Below are positions 1-64,000 of a DNA stretch of 64,000 nucleotides, piece by piece. The translations under genes were made by a program, and so were the position numbers. Position 1 is the stretch's first letter. Each line of letters begins with the position of its first letter. Source of the stretch: Actinocorallia herbida (GTDB lineage: Bacteria; Actinomycetota; Actinomycetes; Streptosporangiales; Streptosporangiaceae). The DNA lies in the NCBI RefSeq assembly GCF_003751225.1, contig NZ_RJKE01000001.1:1-64000 (forward strand), in the 5' to 3' direction. A model generated the notes under the pieces. That model had not been told where the DNA came from and did no database searches. It was given only the letters and a program-made list of their open reading frames with translations.

Positions 1-102
1 TCGGTCACCGCCCCGGACTCGCCACCGGACGCTGACGTCGTGGCGGTCGCAGCCGCACGGGCCGGATCCGTGGCAGCGGCCGGTCCTCGCAGTCGCCGCA
101 GG

Positions 103-1679: not shown

Positions 1680-2509
1680 GCCTTCACCGCGGCGGGCTTG
1701 TAGGGGCGCATCGGCCACAGGCCGTCGGCGTCGCAGGGCTTGCCCTGCTTCGCGAAGTGGTCGCGGAGTTCGGCGTCCTGCTTGCGCTTGGCCTTGATCT
1801 GGGCCTGGTGCAGCTGGACCAAGTCGATCTCGGTGAGCCGCTGGTAGTTGCGGTGCAGGTCCCGCGCCGCTTGGTCCGAGGTTTGCTTCTTGCTGTTCTG
1901 GACGTGCGGGAACTGGAGGAAGAACTCGACGGGCTTGCTTCCCCACGTGACCATCTGCCAGGCGATCCGGCAGGACGCGAGGGCATCGGCACCGGCGTCG
2001 TGCGCGTTGTCGAGCCGGACACCGTAGTGCTTGGCCATCGCGCCGAGCTTCCTGCCTCCGCTGTTCTTAGTCGGCCGCCACGGATCGCACAGCTTGTCGA
2101 GGACGTAGACGTCGACGACGGGGCCGATCGCGCGGCCGAGACGGGCGTCGAGTGTGCGGAGCCCGTGGCGGCGCAGCTCGCGGTCGAACAGGGTGAAGTC
2201 GTAGGCGAGGTTCATGCCGACGATGGGGGTGCCGCCGGCCATGGCCGAGGACAGCTCGTCGGCGTAGTGCTCCAGGACCTTCTTCGGGTCGAGGCCTTCG
2301 GCACGCATCCGCTCGGTGGTGATGCCGTGGATGGCGGAGGCACCCTCGGGGATGTCGACTCCGGCGTTGATGAGCTGGACGTCCTGGGTGGTGGTGCGGT
2401 TGCGGGCGTCGGCCATGACCTGGGCGATCTGCACGATCCGCGCGGTCTCGACGTCGACAGACGTGGTTTCGGTGTCGAAGCCGAACATCGTCTCGGCGAT
2501 CCAGCTCAT
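1676..2509 (-). CDS. DnaQ-like DEDD 3'-5' exonuclease
   Basis: A 277-aa protein beginning with the Exo I motif FDTETT (Asp12, Glu14), followed by a central Exo II-like segment (GMNLAYDFTLFDREL) and an Exo III segment with HDAGADALAS. This is the order of DEDDh exonucleases of the DNA polymerase III epsilon family. These remove nucleotides from DNA 3' ends using two metal ions. The C-terminal ~80 residues are basic and helical and lack a recognised domain. A clear AGGAGG precedes the ATG. It follows the recombination-type nuclease genes in the same leftward operon, but a hairpin at 2561-2583 may partly uncouple it. Confidence 0.85.
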   Translation of the reverse strand: MSWIAETMFGFDTETTSVDVETARIVQIAQVMADARNRTTTQDVQLINAGVDIPEGASAIHGITTERMRAEGLDPKKVLEHYADELSSAMAGGTPIVGMNLAYDFTLFDRELRRHGLRTLDARLGRAIGPVVDVYVLDKLCDPWRPTKNSGGRKLGAMAKHYGVRLDNAHDAGADALASCRIAWQMVTWGSKPVEFFLQFPHVQNSKKQTSDQAARDLHRNYQRLTEIDLVQLHQAQIKAKRKQDAELRDHFAKQGKPCDADGLWPMRPYKPAAVKA

Positions 2510-2560
2510 CGGTCCTCCTGCAGGGTGGGGGCCTGCTCGTGGTCGGGGGTGGCTCCCCGG

Positions 2561-2583
2561 GCCGGGCTCGTGGTGAGCCCGGC
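2561..2583 (-). terminator. Hairpin between Gp3-like and exonuclease genes
   Basis: A perfect 9-bp inverted repeat (GCCGGGCTC / GAGCCCGGC) with a 5-nt loop lies in the 101-bp gap between the two genes. There is no U-tract, so it may act as an attenuator or RNA-processing site rather than a strong terminator. Confidence 0.5.
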
Positions 2584-2610
2584 GGGAGCGTGCGGGGGAA
2601 CGTCAACGGC

Positions 2611-3924: not shown

Positions 3925-3926
3925 GG

Positions 3927-5240: not shown

Positions 5241-5605
5241 TGGGGCACCCCCGTCAGAAAGTCGAGCACCGCGGTGACCTCGTGCTCATCGCCGTGCGCT
5301 ACGTGCATGGACAGCACGTCGAGCTGCTCGAGGGCGCGCGGGGAGTCGGTGCCGAGGTGGCCGCAGTACAGGTCGCAGAGGGACGCCCATGCCTCGGTCC
5401 GGAACGGGTGGGTGGGCAGTACGGCGACGTCGACGAAGTGGGCGCGCCGCAGCCGGTATGCCTCGCGGACGGCGTCCACGATCGAGCTGCCCTTGATCAC
5501 GAGGGCCAGGACGCCGCGGCATTCGTGGTCGAGCAGCAGGGCCGGAGCCTCGCCCAGGACTGACGTGGTCGGGTCGACGGCGGCAACGAGCCGGTTCCGG
5601 ATCAT
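5237..5605 (-). CDS. Hypothetical protein
   Basis: A 122-aa protein starting at an ATG (5605) that overlaps the TGA of the membrane-protein gene and ending in overlap with the nuclease start. The composition is balanced, with predicted mixed alpha/beta structure (LDHECRGVLALVIKGSSIVD, RRAHFVDVAVLPTHPF). No family is recognised. Operon position suggests a small accessory protein of the DNA-processing module. Confidence 0.65.
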   Translation of the reverse strand: MIRNRLVAAVDPTTSVLGEAPALLLDHECRGVLALVIKGSSIVDAVREAYRLRRAHFVDVAVLPTHPFRTEAWASLCDLYCGHLGTDSPRALEQLDVLSMHVAHGDEHEVTAVLDFLTGVPQ

Positions 5606-5889
5606 CGGGCCGCACCCCCGCGCAGGAGCTGGAGTTCGGTGAGCAGGTCGGCGAGGACCTCGCGGATGCGGGCGCCTCCGTCGGGCTGCTCCCACCACGC
5701 CCAGGTGACGGCGGCGGCGAACAGGGCGGCGAGCGCGGCGAGCAAGGCGTCGTCGGCGAGGACGAGGGCGGCGGCCGCGATCCAGCACGCGGCGGCGGTC
5801 CGGCCGAGGAAGTGGTGGAGGCTGGCGGCGGTGTCGGCGAAGACGATCAGCGCGGCCGCGGCGAGGGCGAGGGCGTAGGCGAAGATCAC
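5602..5889 (-). CDS. Small membrane protein
   Basis: A 95-aa protein with two or three hydrophobic helices (IFAYALALAAAALIVFA, ACWIAAAALVLADDALLAAL, LFAAAVTWAWW) and a charged tail. The GTG start at 5889 overlaps the preceding stop (GTGA) and its own stop overlaps the next ATG. No family is recognised. A holin-like or superinfection role is possible but not shown. Confidence 0.65.
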   Translation of the reverse strand: MIFAYALALAAAALIVFADTAASLHHFLGRTAAACWIAAAALVLADDALLAALAALFAAAVTWAWWEQPDGGARIREVLADLLTELQLLRGGAAR

Positions 5890-6242
5890 GCCGCCTCCCC
5901 GAGGAGCTTGGCGAGCAGGCCGTCGGCGTCGCGGGTGGAGGACTCGGCGACCTGGAGGTCGCGGTCGGTGCCGATGGTGTCGGGGGCGGCCTCGGACCAG
6001 TCCATGTCGCCGCTGTTCAGGGCGTCGGCCTTGACGCGAATCTCGCGCCAGTTCGCGAAGGCCTCGACGGCCTGGTCGATGGGGAGATGGTCGGCGATGC
6101 GGCCGAGGACCTTGCGGACGGCGTCGTCGGAGACGCCTTCCTCGTCGGCGAGCCAGACCGCGAGGTCGCGGCGGGCCTTCAGCGCGAGGTACGGGCCGAG
6201 CCGGGGGACGGCGTCCTGGGGACGGTTGGTACGGGGGTTCAT
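5886..6242 (-). CDS. Hypothetical helical protein, first gene of the leftward operon
   Basis: A 118-aa mostly helical protein. I chose the ATG at 6242 because AGGAG lies 6 nt upstream, although the frame is open further. A segment such as RRDLAVWLADEEGVSDDAVRKV could be helix-turn-helix-like, but no motif is convincing. It is the first gene after the hairpin behind the XRE-excisionase gene and is coupled to the membrane-protein gene by GTGA. Confidence 0.65.
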   Translation of the reverse strand: MNPRTNRPQDAVPRLGPYLALKARRDLAVWLADEEGVSDDAVRKVLGRIADHLPIDQAVEAFANWREIRVKADALNSGDMDWSEAAPDTIGTDRDLQVAESSTRDADGLLAKLLGEAA

Positions 6243-6298
6243 CGTCGCTCCTGGGGTTGCTAGGGTTTGCGGCGTGCGGCGCTCGTCGCTCCGCATCA

Positions 6299-6326
6299 GG
6301 CCCGGCGTGTTACAGCACGCTGGGCC
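6299..6326 (-). terminator. Hairpin downstream of the XRE-excisionase gene
   Basis: An 11-bp stem with one mismatch (GGCCCGGCGTG / CACGCTGGGCC) and a 6-nt loop lies 9 nt beyond the stop of the 6335-6808 gene. It probably separates that gene from the nuclease operon. Confidence 0.5.
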
Positions 6327-6334
6327 TTCGCCGT

Positions 6335-6808
6335 TTAAGGGGCCTTGGCCGTGGTCTTCCTGCTACGGCGTCGGTGGGCACGCTGAGCGTGCGTAAGCGC
6401 AGGCCGCCGAAAGGCCTGGATGATCTCGGCAATGTCCCGGTCCGAGAACCGGATCTCCTTGCCGAGCTTCGTGTGCGAGATCTCCTGAGCTCCGGCCTTG
6501 CGGCGCAGAGTCGTGGGTGACCAGGCGTTGCCCAGCCGCTCCGCGGTTTCCTCGGGCGTGTAGAGGCGCGCCGGCTCTTGTCGGTAGGCCTCCGGCAGCA
6601 CGTCGTTCAGCGTCAGGCCGAGAGCCGAGACGACCTTGTGCAGGACGTCGAGACCTGCCTGGCCCTTTTCGAGCTTGGTGACGCTGGCCGGGTTGACGCC
6701 CGCCTTGAGGCCGAGTTCGGTCTGGCTCATCCCCGCCGCGGTACGCGCAACGACGATGCGCATCGGGTCGAAGAGCCCGGGAGCGATCTCGTCTGTGGAA
6801 GTCGTCAC
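6335..6808 (-). CDS. XRE repressor fused to an excisionase-type HTH
   Basis: About 157 aa. Residues ~15-70 are an XRE/Cro HTH (RIVVARTAAGMSQTELGLKA, then NPASVTKLEKGQAGLD). Residues ~88-140 are a second winged-HTH of the excisionase/MerR type (LYTPEETAERL, SPTTLRRKAG, KEIRFSDRDIAEII). The tail is basic. Such an architecture could join repression with integrase directionality; this is inference. The GTG at 6808 is the preferred start. A TTG at 6823 and an ATG at 6763 are alternatives, and none has a strong ribosome site. It is transcribed divergently from another XRE gene across a repeat-rich control region. Confidence 0.75.
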   Translation of the reverse strand: MTTSTDEIAPGLFDPMRIVVARTAAGMSQTELGLKAGVNPASVTKLEKGQAGLDVLHKVVSALGLTLNDVLPEAYRQEPARLYTPEETAERLGNAWSPTTLRRKAGAQEISHTKLGKEIRFSDRDIAEIIQAFRRPALTHAQRAHRRRSRKTTAKAP

Positions 6809-6842
6809 AGGAGTAGACAACAGCAAACTGCCGGTTCTTGCA

Positions 6843-6949
6843 AGCAGGATCCGGCAGTATTTGGCAGTCTCACGGCTAGGTGAACGAAGTTCTGGTTACC
6901 GGCGGGGAACTTCCGTACAGTGGCGGCAGAATCTGGCAGGATTTGGCAG
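6843..6949. promoter_or_regulatory. Divergent control region with 10-bp-phased GGCAG repeats
   Basis: GGCAG occurs at 6853, 6863, 6925, 6935 and 6945, and AGCAG at 6843. Members of each cluster are exactly 10 bp apart. The two best-conserved units are GGCAGTATTTGGCAG (6853-6867) and GGCAGGATTTGGCAG (6935-6949). One helical turn per repeat on one DNA face suggests cooperative binding by one or both flanking XRE proteins. These are probably the lysogeny/excision operators. Confidence 0.65.
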
Positions 6950-6975
6950 AGCCACGTAGACGGGAACCCACGACC

Positions 6976-7467
6976 ATGACGACGGACCAACCGCCGCCAG
7001 ACGAGTCACGTGAAGATCCGTTTCCGGAAGCACTCCTGATCCGCCGGAGCCGGGACGCCGTGAACCTGACGCAAGCAGAAGCCGCGCGAAGAGCCGGAAC
7101 GAAGCTTGCTGAGCGGCGCTGGCGCCAGCTTGAAGAGGGCAAGGAACGCGCGCCCGACAAGACGTTGGCCCACATGGCAGCGGTCGTCGGGGTCTCACCC
7201 GAGGACCTGATCGCCGTCGACCGCCTCGAAGCGGCAGAGACGCTAAGGCGAATCCTCGCGCTCCGCATCGCTGAGGAGCCGCCGCCCGCGGCCGCCCCCA
7301 TCGACTTCCCGGAAGGCGTGAAGGGCGACCCGTTCTTCGAGTGGATCTGGCGGTTCGACGGGGTACCCGAGGCGGAGCGGCAGATGGCGATCCACGGCGT
7401 ACGCCTGTTCCGGAACCCGCCTGGATCGAGCGCCGGATACTCGCAAAGCGACCGCCGCAGAGCGTGA
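6976..7467 (+). CDS. XRE-family transcriptional regulator
   Basis: A 163-aa protein. Residues ~18-75 form an XRE-type HTH (LLIRRSRDAVNLTQAEAARR, then RRWRQLEEGKERAP and LAHMAAVVGVSPEDL). The remainder (VKGDPFFEWIWRFDGVPEAE) is unassigned. I take the ATG at 6976, although the frame is open back to 6880 through the operator cluster. It faces the XRE-excisionase fusion and probably forms the other half of the element's switch. Confidence 0.75.
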   Translation: MTTDQPPPDESREDPFPEALLIRRSRDAVNLTQAEAARRAGTKLAERRWRQLEEGKERAPDKTLAHMAAVVGVSPEDLIAVDRLEAAETLRRILALRIAEEPPPAAAPIDFPEGVKGDPFFEWIWRFDGVPEAERQMAIHGVRLFRNPPGSSAGYSQSDRRRA

Positions 7468-7498
7468 TCCGCTTCGTTGCGTTTGTGTAACGCGGACT

Positions 7499-7522
7499 GC
7501 GAATTCCTGTTCGATTCCTGCG
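7499..7522 (+). repeat. ATTCCTG direct repeat, left copy
   Basis: GCGAATTCCTGTTCGATTCCTG closely resembles 10075-10096 on the other side of the integrase gene and attachment core. The tandem ATTCCTG units 11 bp apart resemble arm-type recombinase sites. Function is inferred. Confidence 0.4.
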
Positions 7523-7592
7523 TGATGTGAGTGGATATAGGGAGCCACGAGGAGTCACTGGCCCAACTCGACGAAGACGTAGAGGACGGACA

Positions 7593-8165
7593 GTGGACTT
7601 CACACCTGCATCACCTGCACCATCCGCCCTCAGCAGCATCTCCGCCCACTGGGAGCGGAAGGTCAGCCAGCTGGAGGCGCAGAACCTCCAGCTCCGCATG
7701 GAGGTCGCCGGCCTGCAAGCCGCGGACGACGTCCGTCGCGAGGAGTACGTTCGCATCGTCGGCGAACACGGGCAGCCGCCTGTGGAGTTCACGGCTGCGC
7801 TCGGCCGAACGGGCGTCGGGCCGGGGCCTCGCGCTGCCTGGGTTCCGCTGGACAGGACCGGCATCTACACCACCGTCCTGATCCTGCCCTGGCAGCCGAT
7901 CGTCGACCCGTACGTCATCGCGGACCTGTGGGCTCAGGTTCGCGGCACCCCGCCGAAGCGGGTCGCCGAGGTCCCGCGCGACGGCATCTGCTCCTCGATC
8001 GAGCCGCTCCGGTTGCCGCAGCCGCTGATGGCCTACACCCACCTGATCGCCCCGCTCCCACACGTCGTCGTCGACTGCGAGATCGAGCCGGACGCACGCA
8101 AGTTCGCCGTTCTGTGCCTGCGCGATATGTGGGAGCGCCACAACCGCGCACTCAAGACCGGCTGA
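7593..8165 (+). CDS. Hypothetical protein with N-terminal coiled coil, upstream of integrase
   Basis: About 190 aa. The GTG start at 7593 follows AGAGGACGG. Residues ~12-50 form a short coiled coil (ISAHWERKVSQLEAQNLQLR). The C-terminal ~130 residues look like a compact alpha/beta domain (YTTVLILPWQPIVDPYVIAD; HVVVDCEIEPDARKFAVLCL). It lies 14 nt before the integrase and is probably co-transcribed, so a recombination-accessory role is conceivable. No family is recognised. Confidence 0.65.
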   Translation: MDFTPASPAPSALSSISAHWERKVSQLEAQNLQLRMEVAGLQAADDVRREEYVRIVGEHGQPPVEFTAALGRTGVGPGPRAAWVPLDRTGIYTTVLILPWQPIVDPYVIADLWAQVRGTPPKRVAEVPRDGICSSIEPLRLPQPLMAYTHLIAPLPHVVVDCEIEPDARKFAVLCLRDMWERHNRALKTG

Positions 8166-8179
8166 ACGAAAGGAGCGCA

Positions 8180-9916
8180 ATGGCCAGCGCAGAGAAACGC
8201 GGCCTGTACTGGCGCGGCCGCTACGAACTCCCCAAGCATCTGTGGAACGACCCGAAGAAGCCGAAGAAAGGCACCATCTCACGGGATGAGTTCGACCAGC
8301 CGTTCGCGCGGGAGCAGGACGCGCTCAACGCCGCCATCCTGAAAGAAGAGGAGATCAAACGGGCTGGACCCGGCTGGAGGGACCCGAAGAAGGGCGACAT
8401 CACCGTCCGGGAATGGCTCGAGCCGGACAAATGGTGGCGGGGTGTCGATGTCGAACCCGCCACCGACCGCAACACCAGGTACCTGATCGAGTACCACATC
8501 CTCCCGCGGTGGGGGGAACGCCCCCTGAACAGCATCATCGACCGCAAAGAGGTCGACGAATGGGAGCGCTCGATCCCTAAGCTCGTGAAGGCGGTAGGAA
8601 AGGGCACCTACGCCAAACGCACCGCGAAGGATGCACGGAACCTGCTGTCGGTCATCCTCGGCGACGCGGTTCCTGAGCGGATCGACGTGAACGCCGCCGC
8701 CCGGCAGAAAGGCCGCGGCCGCAAGCGCGATCGGAAGCAGGCGGTGGTCTCCGCAGAGCTGCAGGAGGAGAAGTTCGCGACTCCGATCGAAGCGCTTCTC
8801 ATCGCGGAGCGGGCCGGGATTCTGACCGGCCGGGACGACGAGTGCTGGCTGCTCATCTCGACGGCCTGGACGGGCATGCGGTGGGGCGAGGCGATTGGCG
8901 CCCGCCGCAGCTACCTTCAGCCGGGTAAGAGCCGGTACCGGCTGCTGGAGCAGCTCCAAGAGCTCGACGGGTTCAACCTCGTCCCGCCGAAGGACGACTC
9001 CACCCGCATCGTCGACCTCCCGCCGTTCCTACTCGCGCTCACCGAGCAGCAGGCCGACCGCACACGCGGCAAGGTCTGCAGCACCTGCTCAGGGAAGTGC
9101 GGTGCCACCGACTACCTGTTCCTGACGCGCAACGCCGCCCACCCCAGCCGCTCCGACTTCGGCGAACGCGTCTGGCACCCAGCAGCCGATGGCGCGACCC
9201 CGGAGATCGGCGGAGCCCAGCCCCGGCCGAAGATGCCGGTCCTCGAGGATGCCCGCAGCGGCCTGCTGCTGCGCCCGGCCTGGCCGTACGCAGACATCGA
9301 CGACCCCTCGGCCTCCTACGAGCCGCCGCGGGGCGGGGGCCGGCCGCGGTGGGACGCGCCCTACGTGAGCGGCGTGGGCTGCCCGACGTGCGAAGCGGCG
9401 CCGGGTGCGGGCTGCAGGTCGGCGACGGGCGGGAAGATCCCGCAGCACTCGGCGCGGCGGCGCATGGCGGTCGACCTCGACATGTACTACGCGCCGGTGT
9501 CGTGGCGGCCGCTCAAGGTCGGGTTGACGCCGCACGGGCTGCGGCACTCTCAGCAGACCTGGCTCCGCGCGGCCCGTATCGACCCCGTCCTCATCAAGGA
9601 GCGTCTCGGTCATGAGAAGCGCGGCATGTCGGAGCACTACACCCACATCACCGAGGAGATGCGGGCCGAGCTCCGCGAGGTCCTGGAGAGCCTGTGGTGG
9701 AAGGCGATCGACGAGCGGATCCGGATGGACGAGGTCGCGGGGCGACGGCCGGGCTCCCGGGTGAGGCTCATCAACGCGGCCATCCGGGAAAGGATCGCGG
9801 CTCGAACGCCTGACTTGCGGGAAGCTCCGACCCCGGAGCCCATCGTTGAGTCCGTCCCCAATCCGTCCCCAGTTCGGCGGGGACGGCGTGATCGGGGGCA
9901 TCTTCGTGTGGTCTGA
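8180..9916 (+). CDS. int: Tyrosine site-specific integrase with zinc-finger insertions
   Basis: A 578-aa phage/ICE-type integrase. A strong AAAGGAG precedes the ATG. The N-terminal ~180 residues cover arm/core binding (ITVREWL, RNTRYLIEYHILPRWGERPL). Catalytic residues are visible as TGMRWGE (Arg234), HGLRH (His452, Arg455), LGH (His478) and HY (Tyr487). The catalytic domain is long because a ~150-residue insert between the Arg and His boxes carries CSTCSGKC (300-307) and a second Cys/His motif (Cys401, Cys404, Cys412, His423) of the kind found on small actinobacterial zinc proteins. The gene points at the attachment core 48 bp downstream, the usual layout for tRNA-targeting elements. Confidence 0.95.
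   Translation: MASAEKRGLYWRGRYELPKHLWNDPKKPKKGTISRDEFDQPFAREQDALNAAILKEEEIKRAGPGWRDPKKGDITVREWLEPDKWWRGVDVEPATDRNTRYLIEYHILPRWGERPLNSIIDRKEVDEWERSIPKLVKAVGKGTYAKRTAKDARNLLSVILGDAVPERIDVNAAARQKGRGRKRDRKQAVVSAELQEEKFATPIEALLIAERAGILTGRDDECWLLISTAWTGMRWGEAIGARRSYLQPGKSRYRLLEQLQELDGFNLVPPKDDSTRIVDLPPFLLALTEQQADRTRGKVCSTCSGKCGATDYLFLTRNAAHPSRSDFGERVWHPAADGATPEIGGAQPRPKMPVLEDARSGLLLRPAWPYADIDDPSASYEPPRGGGRPRWDAPYVSGVGCPTCEAAPGAGCRSATGGKIPQHSARRRMAVDLDMYYAPVSWRPLKVGLTPHGLRHSQQTWLRAARIDPVLIKERLGHEKRGMSEHYTHITEEMRAELREVLESLWWKAIDERIRMDEVAGRRPGSRVRLINAAIRERIAARTPDLREAPTPEPIVESVPNPSPVRRGRRDRGHLRVV
9851..9871 (+). repeat. CCGTCCCCA direct repeats, left of core
   Basis: Two tandem copies of CCGTCCCCA 10 bp apart lie inside the integrase 3' end. 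They are matched by three copies at 10116-10143 beyond the core. They may be integrase arm sites. Confidence 0.4.
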
Positions 9917-9963
9917 CCTGCGGCGGAGCGGAACGCATCGAGGTCTCCCGCAAAGTTCGCATC

Positions 9964-9999
9964 GAAGGGGTCAGGGGTTCGAATCCCCTCATCTCCACC
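9964..9999 (+). other. Attachment core: 3' end of a tRNA-Ala or tmRNA gene
   Basis: A T-arm (stem AGGGG/CCCCT, loop TTCGAAT, 9973-9989) is followed by an acceptor strand CATCTCC and ACC. The U of the acceptor strand would pair as G3-U70, the alanine identity element shared by tRNA-Ala and tmRNA. Upstream sequence does not complete a tRNA, so this is a duplicated 3' end left by integration. The intact gene would lie at the other element end, outside the window to the left. Confidence 0.75.
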
Positions 10000-10009
10000 T
10001 GAGGTAAAG

Positions 10010-54487: not shown

Positions 54488-56020
54488 TCAGTAGGGGGAG
54501 ATGTCGTAGTCGTCGCCGAGCTCGTCGTCCAGGTCCTCAGTGCCGAGCACGAGCGCACCGGTGAGGATCGGGGACAGCAGCATCCGGTTGATGGCCTGGG
54601 TGGTGCCGTCGACCTGGTCGTCGTGCGCGGCGTTCGGGAAGGCCGCGTGCTCGTCGATGTAGGCGCCAATCCACGGCGCGAGCTCCGGGGATGGCAGATG
54701 AACGTTGCCGGCCTCGATGAACGGGGTGACGGCTGAGGCGCGGGCGAGCTTCGACCCGTCGGGCTCGACGGGAATGATCCCGGGGATCCGCTTGGAGAGG
54801 CTGTTGATGACCGCGGTGCCGTTGGCCTTGTCTTCGACGTATTTCCGGGAGGCCTGCGGCCACTTGGCGGTGAGTTGCCGGAATGCCTTGAGGGTCTGCA
54901 CGAACGACATCCGGGCGCACACCTGGTCGAGCAAGAACAGGTCCATGCCCCACCGGCCCCAGACCTGGCCGACGACGAAGTCGGAGTCCTTCTTGTCCTT
55001 GAAGGTCATGTCCCACGACATGGCGACCTCGTCGGCGTTGAGGGCGATGTGTGTGCCGTCCGGCCGGACCACCCAGCGCGGGGAGTCGTACTCGCGCCAC
55101 CAATCCCGGTTGAAGGTGTCGCCTTCGGGTGGGGTGGGGCGTCCCTGGTAAAGGGCGTTCCACACGCGCGACCCGACCGCAACACGGATCTGCTCCCACT
55201 GGGCGACGGTCCGCTGCCGGGAGGAGACGAGGAACTCGCCGGGCTCCCGCCCGAGCGGATCTACCTGGCCCTTCTTCGGGTCGTGGTCTGCGAGGGCCGG
55301 GATGTTCAGGACCCTCCACCGGTGCGCGTCCTCGGCCGCCAGGAGCCGACCGACGATGTCGTCCTCATGCCAACGCGTAAGGATGACGATGACCGGCGCC
55401 CCCGGGGCAAGGCGGGTATTCGCGACGGCGGTCCAGAACGACCAGACGCGGTCGCGCCAGGCCTGCGAGTTCGCGTCGTTCTCGTCCTTGATCGGGTCGT
55501 CGATGAAGATGATGTCGGCCGGCTTGCCGGTCAGGCCGGACGTGATGCCGACGGACCGGACACCGCCGATGTGGCCATCGAGCCGCCACCTGCGCGCGGC
55601 GCCATTGTCGGGGGCGATCCTGAGCCTGAGGTCGAGCGTGCCGTCCGTGCCGTCGTTGGTGGTGATGTGGTTGCGGATGTTCCGCCCGAACTCGTCCGCC
55701 AGGTCCTGCGCGTAGGACGCGATCGCGATGCGGAGCTTCGGGTTGCGGGTCAGCATCCACAGCGGCCCGATCGTCGTGACCCGGGTGGACTTCCCTTCCT
55801 GCGGAGGCATCGTGATGATCAGCCGGTCGCAGCGGCCTTCGGCGACGTCGATGAGCGCGGCGTCGATGAGGTCGAGCGCGCTGGTCTGGATCGTGCTCGG
55901 GTCGACTGCTGCAGCGAGAGCGCCGGGGCTGGTCCACTGGGGGATGTCGTCGGGCTCGGGCGGGTCGTAGTGGCGCAGGAGGGCGTCGGTGACTCCGCGG
56001 AGGGCGTCGAGCGCGACCAC
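54488..56020 (-). CDS. terL: Terminase large subunit
   Basis: A 510-aa protein. ATPase: PPQEGKST Walker A (72-79), IIFIDDP Walker B (170-176), ILTRWHEDD motif III. Nuclease: MSWDMTFKD (Asp337) and a late HDDQVDGT acidic motif. It packages and cuts phage DNA at the portal. GTG start with GGGAGG upstream. No clear small terminase gene adjoins; the HTH protein at 56227-56469 is the only candidate. This gene marks the right end of the virion operon. Confidence 0.95.
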   Translation of the reverse strand: MVALDALRGVTDALLRHYDPPEPDDIPQWTSPGALAAAVDPSTIQTSALDLIDAALIDVAEGRCDRLIITMPPQEGKSTRVTTIGPLWMLTRNPKLRIAIASYAQDLADEFGRNIRNHITTNDGTDGTLDLRLRIAPDNGAARRWRLDGHIGGVRSVGITSGLTGKPADIIFIDDPIKDENDANSQAWRDRVWSFWTAVANTRLAPGAPVIVILTRWHEDDIVGRLLAAEDAHRWRVLNIPALADHDPKKGQVDPLGREPGEFLVSSRQRTVAQWEQIRVAVGSRVWNALYQGRPTPPEGDTFNRDWWREYDSPRWVVRPDGTHIALNADEVAMSWDMTFKDKKDSDFVVGQVWGRWGMDLFLLDQVCARMSFVQTLKAFRQLTAKWPQASRKYVEDKANGTAVINSLSKRIPGIIPVEPDGSKLARASAVTPFIEAGNVHLPSPELAPWIGAYIDEHAAFPNAAHDDQVDGTTQAINRMLLSPILTGALVLGTEDLDDELGDDYDISPY

Positions 56021-57622: not shown

Positions 57623-57691
57623 TGTGTAGCTACAACCTTCCCCGTGGTGTTGTGTAGCTACACATCTTCTGTTAATATGTAGCTACACAAC
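57623..57691. promoter_or_regulatory. Triple TGTAGCTACA operator/promoter
   Basis: Palindrome cores at 57625-57634, 57653-57662 and 57678-57687. The last two, 25 bp apart, enclose GTTAATAT, a probable -10 box for the rightward genes. The unit from 57650 recurs almost exactly at 58.98 kb. Confidence 0.8.
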
Positions 57692-57783
57692 AACTCCACA
57701 GTGGATCCGCCCCCGGGTGGACATCGGGACCTCCCCGGACCGGCTCGCAGCCGGGTCCTCGCTCCCTACCAAAGGAGGTCCCC

Positions 57784-58122
57784 ATGTCCATCTCTTTCTT
57801 CACCCCCGGTGAGGACGCCCCGGAGGAGGTCAACCTGGCCAACGGCAATGCCGCCCGGGTCCTCCACCTCCTGGGCCTCCCCTGCGGGGAGTGGGAGATG
57901 GGAGGTGAGGCCACCGCCGAGGACTTCCTCGGACGGATCCTCATCGCTCAGGCGCTGCTCGACGTCGCCACCGACGACGAGCACGGGCGACCGGACGTCA
58001 CCGACGGCCGGTTCTTCTTCGGAGGCCAGCGGCCCGGCTACCTCGCCGACCGGCTCGCCGAACTGGAGGAGGTCGCCACCTGGGCCACCCGGCACGGGGA
58101 GGACGTCATCTACTGGGGCTGA
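57784..58122 (+). CDS. Hypothetical early phage protein
   Basis: A 112-aa acidic protein with an excellent AAAGGAGG. It contains VNLANGNAARVLHLLGLPCG, FLGRILIAQALLDVATDDEH and YLADRLAELEEVATWATRHG, a pattern common in small actinophage and ICE proteins. First gene after the TGTAGCTACA promoter, so probably early and repressed in the lysogen. No function known. Confidence 0.75.
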   Translation: MSISFFTPGEDAPEEVNLANGNAARVLHLLGLPCGEWEMGGEATAEDFLGRILIAQALLDVATDDEHGRPDVTDGRFFFGGQRPGYLADRLAELEEVATWATRHGEDVIYWG

Positions 58123-58197
58123 CCCCAGGGACGGCGCCCCTCCCCGGGCCATCACCCGGGGCGGATCCACAGCACCACCCGAAAGAGGTTTCGCCCC

Positions 58198-58932
58198 GTG
58201 CCCACCGCCCTCGCCCTCGCACTCACCGTGCCGTCCGCCGAGTTCGCCGCCGCGATCGGTCGCGCCGCCCGCTTCCTGCCCGACCCCGACGCCCGCGGCA
58301 TCTACGCGATGCGCGGCATGCTGCTCACCGCGACCGCCGACGGCGTCGAGGTCATGGCCACCCACGGGCAGGAGACCGCGCGCATCGCCCTGGACGCGGA
58401 CGTCGAAGCGCCGGGCCGGGTGCTGGTGAACGGCCTCATGCTGGCCAGGATCTCCCGCAACCTGCCGAGTGATCCCGTTCTGCTGAGCGAGGGGGCGCGA
58501 GGGCTCGGCATCTCCTGCGGCTCGATCACCTACCGCCTGGCGACGCTGCCGCTGGAGGACTACCCGGTCGGACTGGAGGCGACCTCGGACGGTACCGGCG
58601 TGAGGCCAGCGGGCCGGGATGGGTGGGAGCGCGCGATGAGCACGCCGTCCGCCAGTTCGACGCTGTGGCGTGCGCCGGGCCGCTCGCGCAAGCCGTTCGA
58701 CCCGTCAGGGCTGGAGGTCGGCGCGGCTGTCATCTGGTCTCGGCACGCCGATGACGGATCGCTGGTGTCGGTGTCCGGGCAGGTGTGGTCGGCGGCGGAG
58801 GGGCGGCGGACCGTGTGGGTGGTTGCCGATGGCGAGCGTGTCGCGGTGAAGGTCGCGGAGCGGACGTACGGCGAGGGCTCGTACCGGGATGGGACGTATC
58901 GGCAGGTCACGCGCTTGGTGGAGGTGGAGTAG
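58198..58932 (+). CDS. DnaN (sliding clamp) domain protein, truncated or fused
   Basis: A 244-aa protein. Residues ~1-125 resemble one clamp domain (FAAAIGRAARFLPDPDARGI; GVEVMATHGQETARIALDAD; LARISRNLPSDPVLLSEG; YRLATLPLEDYP). A complete beta clamp has three such domains in ~370 aa, so two are missing. The remaining ~115 residues (FDPSGLEVGAAVIWSRHADD; EGRRTVWVVADGERVAVKVA) are unrelated. An internal ATG at 58636 with GGGAG could start the second part separately. It may modulate the host or phage polymerase clamp. Confidence 0.7.
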   Translation: MPTALALALTVPSAEFAAAIGRAARFLPDPDARGIYAMRGMLLTATADGVEVMATHGQETARIALDADVEAPGRVLVNGLMLARISRNLPSDPVLLSEGARGLGISCGSITYRLATLPLEDYPVGLEATSDGTGVRPAGRDGWERAMSTPSASSTLWRAPGRSRKPFDPSGLEVGAAVIWSRHADDGSLVSVSGQVWSAAEGRRTVWVVADGERVAVKVAERTYGEGSYRDGTYRQVTRLVEVE

Positions 58933-58975
58933 CGCGCTGTGGGGTGGTGTCTTCGAACTTCCCCCTCGAAAAGAG

Positions 58976-59017
58976 TTGTGTAGCTACACGTTTCTTGTTA
59001 ATCTGTAGCTACACAAC
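58976..59017 (+). promoter_or_regulatory. Second TGTAGCTACA operator/promoter pair
   Basis: Cores at 58979-58988 and 59004-59013, 25 bp apart around TTGTTAATCT, almost identical to the 57.65-kb unit. It precedes the SWIM-protein gene with GAGAGGGG. Confidence 0.8.
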
Positions 59018-59033
59018 AACGAGAGGGGCGGGC

Positions 59034-59372
59034 ATGACCACCACCACGACCACCACGGTCAAGTGCGAGCGCTGCCACCGCCCCCTCACCGACCCCAAGC
59101 GCGCCGCCCTCGGCATCGGACGCCACTGCGCCCGCATCCGCCGCCAGGAAGCCGCCACCCTCGCCTTCAAGCCCGCCCAGGTCGAGAAGGCCCGCGAGCT
59201 CATCGAGCAGCGCGCCATCGTTCCCCTCCGCGGCCGCCGCGTCTTCGCCGTCATCGCCTCCAACGGCGTCGACCGCTACCTCACCGCCCCCCATGCCTGC
59301 AACTGCCCGGCCGGGCTCAAGGCCAAGCACACCTGCTACCACCGCGTCGCTGCCGTCCTCCTCGCTGCCTGA
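59034..59372 (+). CDS. SWIM zinc-finger protein with N-terminal DUF6011-like finger
   Basis: A 112-aa protein. The N-terminus CERCHRPLTDPKRAALGIGR, then HCARI, is a DUF6011-like Cys/His finger. The C-terminus (HACNCPAGLKAKHTCYHRVA) has the CxC...CxH pattern of SWIM fingers, which mediate DNA or protein binding. It is under the second TGTAGCTACA promoter and probably part of the early regulon. The ATG at 59034 follows GAGAGGGGCGG. Confidence 0.8.
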   Translation: MTTTTTTTVKCERCHRPLTDPKRAALGIGRHCARIRRQEAATLAFKPAQVEKARELIEQRAIVPLRGRRVFAVIASNGVDRYLTAPHACNCPAGLKAKHTCYHRVAAVLLAA

Positions 59373-59405
59373 CCCCACCCCAACCCCTCACCTCAAGGAG
59401 CCCCC

Positions 59406-59546
59406 ATGGCCGACTACGAGCCCGTTCCCTGCCGGATCTGCGCCGACTTCCACGCGCCGAACATGTGCCCCCCGGCCCCGGACGACTGGGACCCCGTCAG
59501 CGTTCAGCAGCCCATGCAGGACTGCCCCGTCGACGTCTTCTACTGA
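59406..59546 (+). CDS. 46-aa Cys/Asp-rich protein
   Basis: Strong CAAGGAG before the ATG. VPCRICADFHAPNMCPPAPD suggests a small zinc-binding peptide. It is 33 bp behind the SWIM gene and probably co-transcribed. Too short for family assignment. Confidence 0.55.
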   Translation: MADYEPVPCRICADFHAPNMCPPAPDDWDPVSVQQPMQDCPVDVFY

Positions 59547-59659
59547 CCGCTTCGGCGGCCGCTCCAGACCCCTGGGGCCGGACACGCGACCCGCGCCACG
59601 GCGCACCGACTCGCTTCCGGCCCCAGGCCCCACACCCACCCCCACCGAAAGGACCCCTC

Positions 59660-59995
59660 ATGCACGCGCTGCTCATCGCCCTCGACGGCACCGTCTCCGA
59701 ACTCGACCTCCCCAAGAACGACAACCTCGACGTCCTCGTCAAGGCGACCGGCGGCCGCCTCGTCGACGTCGTCCAGCTCACCACCCAGATCGACATGTGG
59801 ATCGACGACGAGGGCGTCTTCACCTCCGAGCCGAACCGCACGGCGACCGCGCTGGCCAAGTCCTTCGGATTCGTCCACCAGGACTACTACGGCCCCGTGG
59901 TCCTCGCCGGATTCAGCCGAAGCGGCGACACGGTGAACCTCACCGCCGACCAAGCCGCCGCCCTCCGCACCCGCCTCGCCGACCTCCAGGTCTGA
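59660..59995 (+). CDS. DUF3846-like protein
   Basis: A 111-aa protein preceded by GAAAGGACC. MHALLIALDGTVSELDLPKN, DNLDVLVKATGGRLVDVVQL and WIDDEGVFTSEPNRTATALA match the DUF3846 pattern often seen in phages and ICEs. Function unknown; third or fourth gene of the SWIM operon. Confidence 0.7.
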   Translation: MHALLIALDGTVSELDLPKNDNLDVLVKATGGRLVDVVQLTTQIDMWIDDEGVFTSEPNRTATALAKSFGFVHQDYYGPVVLAGFSRSGDTVNLTADQAAALRTRLADLQV

Positions 59996-60075
59996 CGAGC
60001 CGTCCGGGGCTGGACTCCACGCCAGCCCCGGACCGTCCGCCCGACCCCGACCCCGGCCCCAACGAACGGAACCCC

Positions 60076-60582
60076 ATGACCCGCCCGAACCACGAAACCC
60101 GCACCATCGGCCACCTGCGCGTCGAGATCATGCCCGACTACGCTTTCGCCGACGCCTGGGCCATCGAGATCCAGCGCAACGGCAAGACGATCGCCACGCT
60201 CGGCAACCTCGCCGAAGCCGCCATCGAGACCACGCTCGCCAGCATGCTCGTCAGCACGAAGATCAAGCCCGGCGCGCTCATCGAGGCCACCATCGCCAGC
60301 ACGAAGCCGCGAACGATCAGGCGCCGGGTGAAGCGCTGCTGGCCGGTGAACCCGCGCTCCACCACGCTCATCACCGACCACGGCCCCATCACCGTCTACA
60401 GCGACAGCATCCGCGTGGTCGAAGAGCCCCCCACCGTCGCCGAGCTGCAGCGCAAGCAGGCCATCGTCGAGGACGCCCGCGACCGAGCAGCCGCGACCGG
60501 CACCCCCGCACCGGACTCCGGCATGCCGGGCTACGCCGAATGGCGACGCCGTGTCCTGCTCGCGGTCGGCGAGCAGGACTAG
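60076..60582 (+). CDS. Hypothetical phage protein
   Basis: A 168-aa protein with weak GAACGGA site. Beta-rich start (IGHLRVEIMPDYAFADAWAI; KTIATLGNLAEAAIETTLAS), then basic (STKPRTIRRRVKRCWPVNPR), then a helical end. The stop (TAG) overlaps the stop of the convergent PIN gene (CTAG). No family recognised. Confidence 0.65.
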   Translation: MTRPNHETRTIGHLRVEIMPDYAFADAWAIEIQRNGKTIATLGNLAEAAIETTLASMLVSTKIKPGALIEATIASTKPRTIRRRVKRCWPVNPRSTTLITDHGPITVYSDSIRVVEEPPTVAELQRKQAIVEDARDRAAATGTPAPDSGMPGYAEWRRRVLLAVGEQD

Positions 60583-62057
60583 GCCCTGCCGCTACCCTTC
60601 GAGCCCTCCGAGCCCCCGCCCGGAGGGCTCTTCGGCTTCCTCTTCCTCCTCCGCTTGCCGCGCGGCTTCGGAACCGCCGCGGGAACCGCCTTCGGAAGGG
60701 CCAGCCCGGCGAGCACGGGGTTCGAGCCCATCATCGACCCGATCTGCGCCGCCAGGCTCTGCGACCCGAATATGGCTTCCTGCATGTGCGCGGTCAGGAG
60801 CTGCGGCCCGAGCATGGCTTTCTGTATCTGATTCACAGACTCCCTCACCTCCTGCAGCGGATCGATCTTGTTGATGGCTGACAGGAGGCTCGGCTCGATC
60901 CCAAGCCGCGCCGCCGCCTTGGCGTGCTCGCTCAAGGTGCTCTCGTACGCCGCGATGTGCTCCCTGAGGCCGTCCATCATGCTGGGGACTTCGGAGATCC
61001 CATGAAGTCCGGCGAGGACGTCGCTGTTGCTGTGGCGCAGGTATTCGGAGAGGCCAGAGACCGCTGGCAGGTGAAGACCTCGAAGCAGGTCCTCAGCGGA
61101 CAGCACGCCGTCCTCTGGCTCGACCTCGTTGATGTCACCTTCACGCGGCTGGTCGAACTTGTCGGTCGTGACCACCCCGCTCACGAGGAGGGTGTAACTC
61201 ATGACCGGGGTGAAGTCGCCGTACTCGACCTCGACAGCGGTCGAGAACGAGCACACGACTCCCCCAGCTTCGAGGCCGGCCATCTCGCCCAGCTCGATCT
61301 CATCTGCCCCGGGCATATTGATCGCGGTGGCGCTCTTCGTCTCCTCATAGCCGTCTTTCAGCCCGGGGAGGAGGCTCTCCAGGATGAAGGTGCGGATCGC
61401 CTTCTCCGAGAGCTCGAGTCGCGCATCGTGCTCGCGCTCGGGCAACTTGTACAGCTTGATCAGGTCATCGACGACCATCCTGATCGAGCTGGCCACTCGA
61501 AGACGGTCCGCGACGCCCCGCTCAGCGGCTTCTGCGAGAAGCTCCTCGTGGAGCTTGCGGGCTTGCGGGTTCCCGAAGTCGGTGTCGCTCGTCACCCAGA
61601 CGATCTCCTCGTCAGGGTTCCGCTCGGCCACGTCGAGGACGGTCAGCCAGTTCAGAGTGTCCCGGTATCCGTCGCCCTTGCTGTCACACGGCCTTCGCCG
61701 TTCGACCTGCCGCCGGACCATTTCGAGCACGGGCACAGCAGCCGGCTCGATGAGCTCAGCGCCGAGAGATCGAGCGTCCTCCATGAACTGCTCTTTCTCT
61801 CGGCTGATCTTGTCCTCCACCTCTCGGAGGGCCGCGGCGAAAGCAGCGCTGTCCTTGTACTTTCTCGCAACTTTCCGTAGCGGGCTTAGCTCTTCCTCCG
61901 CGAGGTCTCTCCCCAGCTTGCCGACCGCCTCGGCAGCGACGACGCGAGGGATCTTGATATGGACGCCCCACTGCCTGCCCATGAGGCCGAGGATGCGCCA
62001 CGAGGTGCGCGTGAGTTCGGTTGCGATCAGGGGGCTGGCGTCGAACAGCACGATCAT
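60579..62057 (-). CDS. PIN-domain (DUF4935-like) protein with long C-terminal region
   Basis: A 492-aa protein. MIVLFDASPLIATELTRTSW, then IPRVVAAEAVGKL, opens a PIN-like nuclease fold. GYRDTLNWLTVLDVAERNPD and EIVWVTSDTDFGNPQARKLH supply the later acidic positions, as in DUF4935 proteins. The PIN part spans ~1-190. Residues ~200-430 are unassigned, including a beta region (VVCSFSTAVEVEYGDFTPVM), and the tail is Lys/Arg/Gly-rich. It opposes its neighbours and is flanked by hairpins, like a cargo toxin or defence gene; this is inference. Confidence 0.75.
   Translation of the reverse strand: MIVLFDASPLIATELTRTSWRILGLMGRQWGVHIKIPRVVAAEAVGKLGRDLAEEELSPLRKVARKYKDSAAFAAALREVEDKISREKEQFMEDARSLGAELIEPAAVPVLEMVRRQVERRRPCDSKGDGYRDTLNWLTVLDVAERNPDEEIVWVTSDTDFGNPQARKLHEELLAEAAERGVADRLRVASSIRMVVDDLIKLYKLPEREHDARLELSEKAIRTFILESLLPGLKDGYEETKSATAINMPGADEIELGEMAGLEAGGVVCSFSTAVEVEYGDFTPVMSYTLLVSGVVTTDKFDQPREGDINEVEPEDGVLSAEDLLRGLHLPAVSGLSEYLRHSNSDVLAGLHGISEVPSMMDGLREHIAAYESTLSEHAKAAARLGIEPSLLSAINKIDPLQEVRESVNQIQKAMLGPQLLTAHMQEAIFGSQSLAAQIGSMMGSNPVLAGLALPKAVPAAVPKPRGKRRRKRKPKSPPGGGSEGSKGSGRA
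60601..60630 (+). terminator. Hairpin at the convergent stop
   Basis: Stem GAGCCCTCC / GGAGGGCTC, about 19 bp past the plus-strand stop and inside the 3' end of the PIN gene. Likely ends the SWIM operon transcript. Confidence 0.6.
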
Positions 62058-62168
62058 GTGGTCGATTCTGCTCTGCACTGGTGACAAAACCGGCTGGTAG
62101 TTGCAGATCAGTTCGTTCTGATGTTGCCCGGGCGGGGCGGCGCGGGTCCGGCCGTAGAATCGGATCCC

Positions 62169-62603: not shown

Positions 62604-62987
62604 TCACTCTAGGAATGGCGGGAAGCCCAGTTCCTCCGCCAGGTGGTCGGAGGCTGAGCCGATGAGTTCTGCCTGGTGTTCGGCCGTGTCCAGCCTCCGT
62701 TGGGAGGCTCCGGCGTGTACGGCTTGTCCGCAGATGTCTGCGAGGCCGTACCACTCCAGGATCATCACCTTGAGCAGTTCCTTCGCGTGGTTGCTGATCG
62801 GCTGTGAGTCGATCAGGTCCAGGCGGACCCTTTCCAGGCGCTTCATCGTCTCGGTGGCGGTGAGGCTGGGGCCGATCTCCGGGAAGCCGATGCGCAGGGG
62901 CAGCGCTTCCAGGATCTTGGCGATCAGGGCCAGGGTGCCGACGAGCAACCGCGCCATGTCGCGCTGTCGCTTCGGGTTGTCTTCCAC
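62604..62987 (-). CDS. Paralogous small helical protein, copy A
   Basis: A 127-aa helical protein with GTG start after AGAGGAG. The N-terminal half (MEDNPKRQRDMARLLVGTLA; AKILEALPLRIGFPE; MKRLERVRLDLI) follows the same pattern as the proteins starting at 63529 and 63767: acidic start, hydrophobic helix, LPLRI-like turn, then an R-x-R-x-x-L helix. I do not recognise the family. Its promoter and leader are one of three repeated copies. Confidence 0.7.
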   Translation of the reverse strand: MEDNPKRQRDMARLLVGTLALIAKILEALPLRIGFPEIGPSLTATETMKRLERVRLDLIDSQPISNHAKELLKVMILEWYGLADICGQAVHAGASQRRLDTAEHQAELIGSASDHLAEELGFPPFLE

Positions 62988-63090
62988 CCGATTCTCCTCT
63001 GTGGACTTGTCAATGTGCGGTGTCGGCGGGGGCTTCTGACTTCCCCTTGCCGACGTCTCTAACTATACCGCAAACCGGGGACTAGTGCAA
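62988..63090 (-). promoter_or_regulatory. Repeated promoter-leader, copy A
   Basis: Minus strand: TTGCAC (63090-63085), 17-bp spacer starting TAGTCCCCG, TATAGT (63067-63062). A leader follows with a hairpin (63054-63022; GTCGGC/GCCGAC and GGGG/CCCC around AAGTCAGAA) and CCGCACATTGACAA, then AGAGGAG. Shared with copies B and C. Confidence 0.85.
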
Positions 63091-63105
63091 CAGATTGGAG
63101 AGGGG

Positions 63106-63135
63106 GTCCCGCCCGACCGGATGCCGGGCGGGGCC
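63106..63135 (-). terminator. Hairpin after the copy B gene
   Basis: Stem CCCGCCCG / CGGGCGGG, about 8 bp beyond the stop of the 63143-63529 gene and upstream of promoter A. Confidence 0.65.
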
Positions 63136-63142
63136 GTGAGAG

Positions 63143-63529
63143 CTAGCTGCCGTCCTCGTCGTCCTCGTTCTCGCAGGGCATCATCTGCATGAACACCGCG
63201 AGGCCCGAGGCCACCTCGTTGATCAGGGCTTCGGCGATGTCGAGCCGGAACCCGTCATCGCCCGCCATGTCCGCGAGGGCGACCGCCTCCATGGCGGCGA
63301 TCCAGCGGACGATGCACCCGCCGAGCACCTTGCCGGGCAGGTCCGGCGTGCCCATCTCGACCATGAGGGTCCGCGCCCGGTTGAGCGAGGCCATCACCTG
63401 GACCGTGTCGCCCTGCTGGACGTCGTCGATCTCGATCGGGAGGGGCAGGTGCTTCGTGAGCGCGTGCCGGATGCTGTCGAACAGCAGCACGAGGTAGCCC
63501 ACCAGCTTCTCAATGGACTGGTCGTCCAT
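63143..63529 (-). CDS. Paralogous small helical protein, copy B
   Basis: A 128-aa acidic helical protein. MDDQSIEKLVGYLVLLFDSI, HALTKHLPLPIEIDD and VMASLNRARTLMVEMGTPDL align by eye with copies A and C. ATG start after AGAGGAGAGAAG. It ends in an acidic tail (CENEDDEDGS). No family recognised; probably homologous to the flanking copies. Confidence 0.7.
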   Translation of the reverse strand: MDDQSIEKLVGYLVLLFDSIRHALTKHLPLPIEIDDVQQGDTVQVMASLNRARTLMVEMGTPDLPGKVLGGCIVRWIAAMEAVALADMAGDDGFRLDIAEALINEVASGLAVFMQMMPCENEDDEDGS

Positions 63530-63632
63530 CTTCTCTCCTCTGTGGATTTGTCAATGTGCGGTGCCGGTCCGGGGCTTCTGACTTCCCCTCGCCAACAGGA
63601 CAACAGTACCACGTTTTCGGGGATTAGTGCAA
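63530..63632 (-). promoter_or_regulatory. Repeated promoter-leader, copy B
   Basis: Minus strand: TTGCAC (63632-63627), 18-bp spacer starting TAATCCCCG, TACTGT (63608-63603). The leader repeats GGGGAAGTCAGAAGCCCC and CCGCACATTGACAA before AGAGGAG. The outer stem differs from copy A but remains pairable. Confidence 0.85.
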
Positions 63633-63665
63633 CGAAAATCCACCCCAAGATCTCGGCTAAATGGG

Positions 63666-63766
63666 TTGCACTAGTCCCCGATATGCCGTAGAGTTTGAGG
63701 TGTCGGAAGGGAAGTCAGAAGCCCGGCCGACAAACCGCAGATTGACAACTCAAGAGAGGAACCCAA
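63666..63766 (+). promoter_or_regulatory. Repeated promoter-leader, copy C
   Basis: Plus strand: TTGCAC (63666-63671), 17-bp spacer starting TAGTCCCCG, TAGAGT (63689-63694). Hairpin 63702-63731 has a GTCGG/CCGAC stem and the same AAGTCAGAAG loop, with the inner stem shortened to GGG/CCC on both sides. GAGAGGA precedes the GTG. It diverges from copy B. Confidence 0.85.
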
Positions 63767-64000
63767 GTGGAAGACGAGTCCAAGGACGCGTTCCGCGAGG
63801 CCATGATCGAGTGCCTGGACGCCTACGAGACGCTGGCCCACATCCTGCGGCGGCACCTGCCGATCGCGATCGAGGTTCCGACCCCCTCCGGGCCGGAGCC
63901 GGTGTGGTCCCTGCGCGAGGCGCTCAACGCCCTCACCCGCACGCGGGAGGAGCTGCTGCCGACCATGGTCGGCCTCTCCGCCCTCTACCGGGAGCTGCTG
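63767..64000 (+). CDS. Paralogous small helical protein, copy C (cut by window end)
   Basis: 78 residues are visible. MEDESKDAFREAMIECLDAY, AHILRRHLPIAIEVPTP and LREALNALTRTREELLPTMV share the acidic start, LPxxI turn and R-T-R-x-x-L helix with copies A and B. The gene continues past position 64000. Confidence 0.7.
   Translation, partial: MEDESKDAFREAMIECLDAYETLAHILRRHLPIAIEVPTPSGPEPVWSLREALNALTRTREELLPTMVGLSALYRELL

Follow-up and report, generated by a model that had tools for sequence, protein, structure and literature searches.

Near the end of a 64,000-bp stretch of Actinocorallia herbida DNA (hereafter, the window), three short genes are each preceded by a copy of the same promoter-like sequence and structured leader. 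This arrangement raises the question of whether the repeated sequence is a DNA promoter or operator or an RNA element, and of what it might do for the genes that it precedes. The original prediction considered it a possible new cis-regulatory RNA or operator family controlling a phage gene family.

Leader copies and family-1 genes in the prophage

The window is located in a prophage. The region belongs to the IMG/VR viral record L015 (100% identical), a terminase is encoded at 54488-56020, and the ORF at 7928-9916 resembles, by eye, a tyrosine integrase. A 10-kb direct repeat with 99.6% identity is shared between positions 1-10002 of the window and C1:97936-107906 of the same genome; it ends at GGTTCGAATCCCCTCATCTCCAC (9976-9998), which resembles a tRNA 3' end and adjoins the integrase-like ORF. 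This repeat represents either a tandem/excised prophage of ~98 kb or sequence that overlaps in the assembly where the contig begins. Additionally, an imperfect palindrome, GTTGTGTAGCTACACA...TGTAGCTACACAACAAC, occurs in two copies at 57649-57694 and 58975-59020 (89% identical, 1.3 kb apart), which are perhaps operators of a repressor.

The three genes, whose products we refer to as family 1, are gene A (62604-62987, minus strand; 127 aa, GTG start), gene B (63143-63529, minus strand; 128 aa, predicted four-helix) and gene C (63767-64000, plus strand, continuing to C1:64174 outside the window; 135 aa, GTG start). A fourth family-1 gene, D, is located at C1:64334-64747. The proposal that the proteins are paralogous was borne out by a blastp comparison of the four alone, with E-values of 1e-16 (C-D), 6e-9 (B-C), 4e-9 (A-D), 2e-7 (B-D), 6e-4 (A-C) and 0.014 (A-B). 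At 22-32% identity they are diverged paralogues, whereas leaders A-C have a mean column identity of 82%. The family-1 proteins tried had no match in Pfam, NCBIfam or PADLOC, and those found in PHROGs were to phrog_33636, of unknown function (L084, E 2e-5; L081, E 0.035), and phrog_19227 (gene B, E 0.16). The AlphaFold model of the gene B product has four helices (pLDDT 88.7) and matches nothing in PDB or BFVD at an E-value of up to 0.001; a tblastn search of named phages with three of the proteins returned no match. Downstream of gene A, a 506-aa PIN-domain (PIN_12) protein is encoded on the minus strand at 60579-62099.

The three predicted promoter and leader copies are present as described, at 62988-63090 (A, minus strand), 63530-63632 (B, minus strand) and 63666-63766 (C, plus strand). 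All three contain TTGCACTAnTCCCCG. The -35-like hexamer TTGCAC (63085-63090 in A, 63627-63632 in B and 63666-63671 in C) is followed, after 17, 18 and 17 nt, by the -10-like hexamers TATAGT (63062-63067), TACTGT (63603-63608) and TAGAGT (63689-63694), read from the sequence as parts of putative promoters. The 15-bp sequence TTGCACTAGTCCCCG (63076-63090 in copy A) is common to the leader copies of this prophage. The 5' arm of a hairpin begins 5-7 nt past the -10-like hexamer. Based on folding and covariation, this hairpin reads GUCGGC-AA-GGGG-AAGUCAGAAG-CCCC-C-GCCGAC in A (63022-63054), UGUUGG...GGGG-AAGUCAGAAG-CCCC...CCGGCA in B (63562-63597) and UGUCGG-AA-GGG-AAGUCAGAAG-CCC-GG-CCGACA in C (63701-63732). 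The loop AAGTCAGAAG is thus accompanied by closing pairs that change from GGGG/CCCC (A and B) to GGG/CCC (C) with pairing kept, as had been noticed before, and all three copies have an outer stem. After the hairpin come ACCGCA[C/G]ATTGACAA and then the Shine-Dalgarno (SD) sequence, which is AGAGGAG in A (62994-63000) and B and AGAGAGGAA in C; CCGCACATTGACAA is perfect in A and B, and C reads CCGCAGATTGACAA. The 3' part of each leader contains a 15-nt motif, present as the variants TTGACAAGTCCACAG in A (62999-63013) and TTGACAAATCCACAG in B (63540-63554) and as TTGACAACTCAAGAG in C (63742-63756), which matches the pattern TTGANAACTCAANAG exactly.

A fourth copy, D, was localized at C1:64234-64331, 234 bases past the window end and ahead of gene D. 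In the 9.8-Mb genome, GGGAAGTCAGAAGCCC at 0 mismatches occurs only in copies A-D, and 2 mismatches add four more sites. Likewise, TTGCACTAnTCCCCG at up to 1 mismatch is found just in copies A-D; its reversed control also yields 4 sites, so the rarity of TTGCACTAnTCCCCG alone says little.

Fold, conservation and distribution of the leader

In an alignment of 48 distinct leaders, fitted to the model and in that respect favouring the structure, the two-helix hairpin has 95.4% of its cells paired and double changes in 6 of its 10 pairs (in one of them, C-G replaces G-C in five sequences). None of 500 shuffles had a covariation score as high, nor did any of six slid registers, all of which were at most 65% paired. 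In single-sequence folding, with simple mononucleotide shuffles as the background, 35 of 46 leaders had a z-score below -1.5 (mean -2.2). The retention of the fold in 48 distinct leaders from related genomes is thus more than would be expected by chance, and the covariation foreseen in the original prediction is present. The loop is variable, with AAGUCAGAAG in this prophage and GUCGGAA, GUGGCAA or GUGACAG elsewhere. A pseudoknot between the loop and the 3' motif (GUCA/UGAC), considered by eye, is broken in D and in element E. A coding N-terminal extension was also rejected: the distance from motif to start codon is 18-31 nt across 42 leaders and falls in all three frames, and since no frame is conserved, the leader is not coding.

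The information content of 26 leaders, one per locus, separates the transcribed part from the rest. In bits per column, the promoter spacer holds 0.44, the -35 hexamer 0.92 and the -10 region 1.14, vs 1.59 in the 5' stem arm, 1.46 in the 3' arm and 1.53 in the 3' motif, indicating that the transcript is the main part common to the elements. The shared -35 and spacer sequence, which had been listed among the family features, is accordingly local to this prophage, where TTGCACTAnTCCCCG may perhaps be a repressor site. It is on this sequence, carried by four local copies with one mismatch in D, that one could build the view that the copies are merely a duplicated DNA promoter or operator carried along by tandem gene duplication. 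However, the spacer is not conserved across elements while the transcribed part is, with covariation, and the leaders agree far better than the diverged proteins behind them; we consider this explanation very improbable.

The leader had no Rfam match at the gathering score; three weak matches to miRNA/snoRNA families (E 0.27-4) were dismissed. The leader family is real, conserved and structured, and as a family it is well supported: the anticipated new cis RNA element, placed on phage-type genes and without an Rfam entry, has both homologues and covariation.

These homologues were located in several sets of sequences. When a profile of the four proteins was run against 341 genomes of the host's family (the one that includes Nonomuraea, Microbispora and Sphaerisporangium), 19 of them, the host's own included, contained relatives. 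The leader was found by eye upstream of 25 of the 27 protein matches read. The two exceptions are L018 in genome G050, a weak match (E 0.006) without a leader that was judged false, and L038, which closely follows another family-1 gene. The covariance model R2, built from the leaders, identified them in 21 of 341 genomes of the family (12 of 68 genera), its own included, and in 4 of 394 genomes of a class-wide sample, namely its own and three outside the family. In these three (L121, L122 and L123) the hairpin stands ahead of a different protein each time; at L122 a shortened version of the leader is followed by a family-1 relative, and L123 is without the 3' motif. In viral contigs, one pattern yielded 30 stretches, which were judged by hand to be 18 real leaders and 12 chance matches (L194, L196, L197, L199, L203, L206-L208, L210, L212, L213 and L219). 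Ten of the 18 are this prophage or loci known from the genomes, and eight are new (L195, L201, L202, L205, L209, L211, L214 and L218). From one search, 13 of 26 stretches were discarded because they came from other phyla, and the Actinocorallia stretch L069 was discarded for want of a clear hairpin. A blastn search of plasmids with a viral leader gave no match.

One leader (E 0.017) was found in the Actinoplanes phage phiAsp2 (NC_005885). This phage (L246/L247) contains repeats of TTGACACTTCACAGTCAA, several with a -10, at nine blast places and at more by a later count. Given these many promoter/operator copies, most of its blast places correspond to the promoter and not to the leader; the array is reminiscent of stoperators.

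The genes behind the leader are diverse. In addition to family 1, it precedes family 2 (TVxxRYAGxHxxxTE...; L072, L075, L076, L087, L096, L108 and L181), often divergent from family 1, as well as various small proteins (L078, L121, L123, L185, L188 and L214). At L085, leaders adjoin a TrwC relaxase gene. In G589, outside the host's family, five leaders stand ahead of five different genes within 12 kb; there the hairpin is kept and the 3' segment is different, so these are only partial members of the hairpin family. With several unrelated families downstream, the idea that the leader controls a phage gene family is not supported, and a leader ahead of different protein families argues for a general signal. 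It also bears on the possibility that the leader is an RNA operator for autoregulation, to which the family-1 protein or another protein encoded by the element would bind. Such an operator would fit the joint occurrence of leader and family-1 gene at nearly all protein matches read, but leaders also precede family-2 genes and those of L078, L121, L123 and L188, no family-1 gene was seen in the 12 kb listed at G589, and the 3' motif recurs in host rRNA and tmRNA leaders. We therefore regard autoregulation as improbable.

In five prophage-type loci, where genes were called by a simple composition rule and not from annotation, the leader and a family-1 gene are located upstream, on the same strand, of packaging/head genes: HNH, terminase and head genes at L080; HNH, terminase, portal and head genes at L081; terminase subunits at L082; terminase and portal genes at L087; and HNH, portal and capsid genes at L075, where the terminase candidate has no Pfam match. 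At many copies, A-D among them, the leader is followed by a short gene; within the window, A/B are separated from the terminase by genes on the plus strand (57784-60582). Recurrent neighbours of the leader are an HTH_17/excisionase-like regulator and a small 'ELPGRxFTV...DPRL' protein of unknown function (L005:2948-3451, L074:8280-8759, L080:9222-9617 and L081:8124-8357); the regulator of this prophage also matches PADLOC PDC-M06B (6e-10).

A related element, type II, was identified in 13 loci: L005:2790-2880 (C1:64790-64880), L074, L075, L077, L078, L080, L081, L084, L085, L088, L182, L201 and L205. Its hairpin is longer and stronger, mostly GGACCGGCGAGG...CCUCGCCGGUCC and often with UCGGAA; after it come a GCAGGUUGAAAACUCC-like segment and GGAG. 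A family-1 frame ends 86-150 nt upstream of that segment at 12 of the 13 loci, and at L182 none was found; in this prophage, type II follows gene D at about C1:64790-64880. Type II has the 3' half of the leader in common, and possibly the two are sites of one kind.

The 3' motif in rRNA and tmRNA leaders

The 3' half of the leader, UUGAnAACUCAAsAG, is similar to the boxC region of the actinobacterial rRNA leader and to the tmRNA 5' leader. The original prediction had been right to see a conserved, structured cis element; gene-family control was not supported, and this likeness had been missed. Our searches of open-access papers met with no description of the leader of these mobile elements (hereafter, mobile leader) or of a tmRNA-leader motif.

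In the same genomes the rRNA leader reads GUUUCUUGAGAACUCAACAG, with AACUC located 168-195 nt before 16S (this genome and the G325 loci). Searching the 9.8-Mb genome with TTGANAACTCAANAG at up to 1 mismatch yielded nine sites, vs 0 for the reversed control. Six are in rRNA leaders, with 16S beginning 182-183 nt further on, two are leaders C and D, and the ninth is neither. Leaders A and B, with their diverged variants, are outside these nine. Eight other genomes contain 62 sites of the pattern, 50 of them exact. At one mismatch the reversed pattern occurs at 0-7 sites per genome there, vs 4-10 for the pattern itself, so only exact matches are informative in these eight genomes. The 32 exact sites that were read comprise 23 of rRNA type, 7 mobile leaders and 2 tmRNA leaders (G153 and G350). 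Among the rRNA-type sites, 16S is downstream in 13, and in the ten where the contig ends first the identification is based on GUUUCUUGAG or GUUCUUUGAG. One site with one mismatch in G142 (L180) is neither rRNA-type nor a mobile or tmRNA leader. All rRNA-type sites read contain TTGAGAACTC, with G at motif position 5; in the mobile leaders that make up alignment A7, the base there is A, C or T, the exception, found elsewhere, being the family-2 leader L181, with G.

Additionally, tmRNA genes were found independently of the motif. Among these, 14 of 24 carry it at up to 3 mismatches just before the mature 5' end and the other 10 have it at at least 4 mismatches; adding the two motif-found genes makes this 16 of 26. 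Neither the upstream nor the shuffled control had the motif in any of its 27 rows, of which one (L228, plus strand) was spurious. Examples of UUGACAACUCAACAG-like tmRNA leaders are L177, L178, L223, L227 and L234. When a matrix from 26 mobile leaders was applied, the two motif-found tmRNA leaders scored 22.4 and 25.7, five rRNA leaders scored 5.2, 2.0, 5.2, 6.1 and 5.2, and the best of 259,678 windows belonging to neither leader nor type II scored ~4.5. Based on these scores, the tmRNA leader looks like the nearest host relative and the rRNA leader like a more distant one.

The position of the motif beside the mature 5' end of tmRNA, together with the close spacing of hairpin and -10-like hexamer in A-C, would suit a leader for RNA stability or processing, in which the mRNA would be shielded by the hairpin at its 5' end and the segment would serve for processing or maturation, as a site common to rRNA and tmRNA precursors. 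In line with this, according to the accessible text of PMC6614801, RNase III processes pre-16S rRNA at a duplex that involves boxC. A protective hairpin, however, requires no conserved 15-nt single-stranded motif, yet the motif is among the best-conserved parts of the leader. Protection or processing seems to us a weak contender, slightly less probable than the translational switch discussed below.

Proposed function and comparison with known systems

What the analysis establishes is a leader family with a shared fold and a modular distribution, related in sequence to rRNA/tmRNA leaders. Judged by its letters, the leader is of Nus type, and from them we infer its function. A 2004 study cited in PMC9695777 reportedly dealt with NusA and the M. 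tuberculosis rrn nut site. By sequence only, the 3' motif was likened to boxC, against what we take to be the letters of the NusA-bound RNA. Among the features of nut sites, the leader has a sequence resembling the boxC/NusA site and a hairpin that adjoins the linear element, boxB-like in placement. The 5' half of boxA (GUUUCUU/GUUCUUU in the rRNA leaders read) is absent from the mobile leaders, which have GCAGGUU, GCACAUU and similar sequences instead; NusB/S10 binding is therefore not supported. In the rrn leaders of M. tuberculosis, NusA binds boxC, according to the accessible text of PMC6614801 (citing Beuth 2005). With the boxC-like part kept and the 5' half of boxA missing, the simplest inference is that NusA is recruited alone or first.

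The reading that we tentatively place first, at a little below an even chance, is that the leader is a reusable, boxA-less, nut-like RNA module that would recruit NusA, alone or with other Nus factors, and give termination resistance. Each copy would comprise a promoter and a transcribed 5' leader, reused by actinobacterial phages and conjugative elements. Transcription would start upstream of the hairpin, which would lie near the predicted 5' end of the transcript and be followed by single-stranded UUGAnAACUCAAsAG, presumably a variant of the element in host rRNA (boxC region) and tmRNA leaders, reaching into the SD sequence. The nascent leader would bring NusA, with or without other Nus factors, to RNA polymerase, and the transcript could thereby resist premature (Rho-type) termination, for example across long packaging operons. 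The leader ahead of packaging/head genes in five loci is where an antitermination site would be useful; against antitermination, the short genes behind A-D and others seem to need little of it.

As the motif abuts the SD sequence, a translational role is equally compatible with this arrangement. In a switch of the suhB kind, NusA or a Nus complex on the motif would block the ribosome and keep the gene low, the hairpin setting the geometry. In the leaders read, the motif adjoins or overlaps the SD (AACUCAAGAGAGGAG), and monocistronic copies would suit such control. There is a precedent in E. coli suhB, where, in the accessible text of PMC5725501, BoxA and the SD are 6 nt apart and translation is repressed by Nus factors, which also repress the Citrobacter gene CKO_00699. 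Nevertheless, suhB relies on BoxA, which is absent from the mobile leaders, tmRNA and rRNA leaders have the motif without an SD and start codon after it, and the position before packaging operons would be left unexplained. We consider a translational switch unlikely, though the foremost alternative to NusA recruitment for termination resistance.

On the latter reading, a signal by which the host controls the transcription of rRNA- and tmRNA-type RNAs may have been borrowed by phages. A bolder form of it, which we hold to be doubtful but worth stating, is that the leader is an RNA cassette of phages and conjugative elements, copied or converged from tmRNA/rRNA leaders, that would give mRNAs boxA-independent, NusA-driven elongation; shared by unrelated elements and genes and paired with type II, it would constitute a new actinophage antitermination system. 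If NusA recruitment holds, these are concrete Nus-type leaders in actinobacterial phages, open to test, and the range of Nus-type RNA elements, so far rRNA and gammaproteobacterial mRNAs, would come to include mobile-element mRNAs and tmRNA. A searchable covariance model is now at hand for a leader family absent from Rfam.

Among known phage elements, the SAS of cluster K mycobacteriophages is GGGATAGGAGCCC, about half of the copies having a 17-bp imperfect inverted repeat (PMC3203893, accessible text). Like SAS/ESAS as described there, the leaders are repeated, start-proximal elements before many phage gene families, but the sequence differs (PMC3203893); by eye, GGGATAGGAGCCC before the start codon is absent from the leader alignment. 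The tmRNA (ssrA) 5' leader of Streptosporangiaceae and relatives is similar in having (G)UUGACAACUCAACAG ahead of the mature RNA, in some cases with a short hairpin preceding the motif; it differs in that tmRNA comes next, not an SD and start codon, and in that the hairpin sequence is, by eye, not conserved. In the rRNA nut element (boxB-boxA-boxC), UUGAGAACUCAACAG agrees with mobile leaders at up to 14 of 15 positions, whereas the mobile leaders are without the 5' half of boxA, rarely have G at motif position 5, and are mRNA leaders ending in an SD. We know of no covarying hairpin in the suhB and CKO_00699 leaders. These share with the mobile leaders a Nus-type RNA element a few nt from the SD of an mRNA leader, but that element is BoxA (GYTCTTTAANA) in the accessible text of PMC5725501, vs the boxC-like motif here; of the suhB-type features, the mobile leaders thus have a motif near the SD and no BoxA. 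Finally, as in lambda-type nut sites, a hairpin and a single-stranded Nus-type element stand, by gene order in five loci, ahead of putative phage operons. No N-like protein was noticed in passing, and unlike those sites, the mobile leaders run from hairpin to linear element, as rRNA does.
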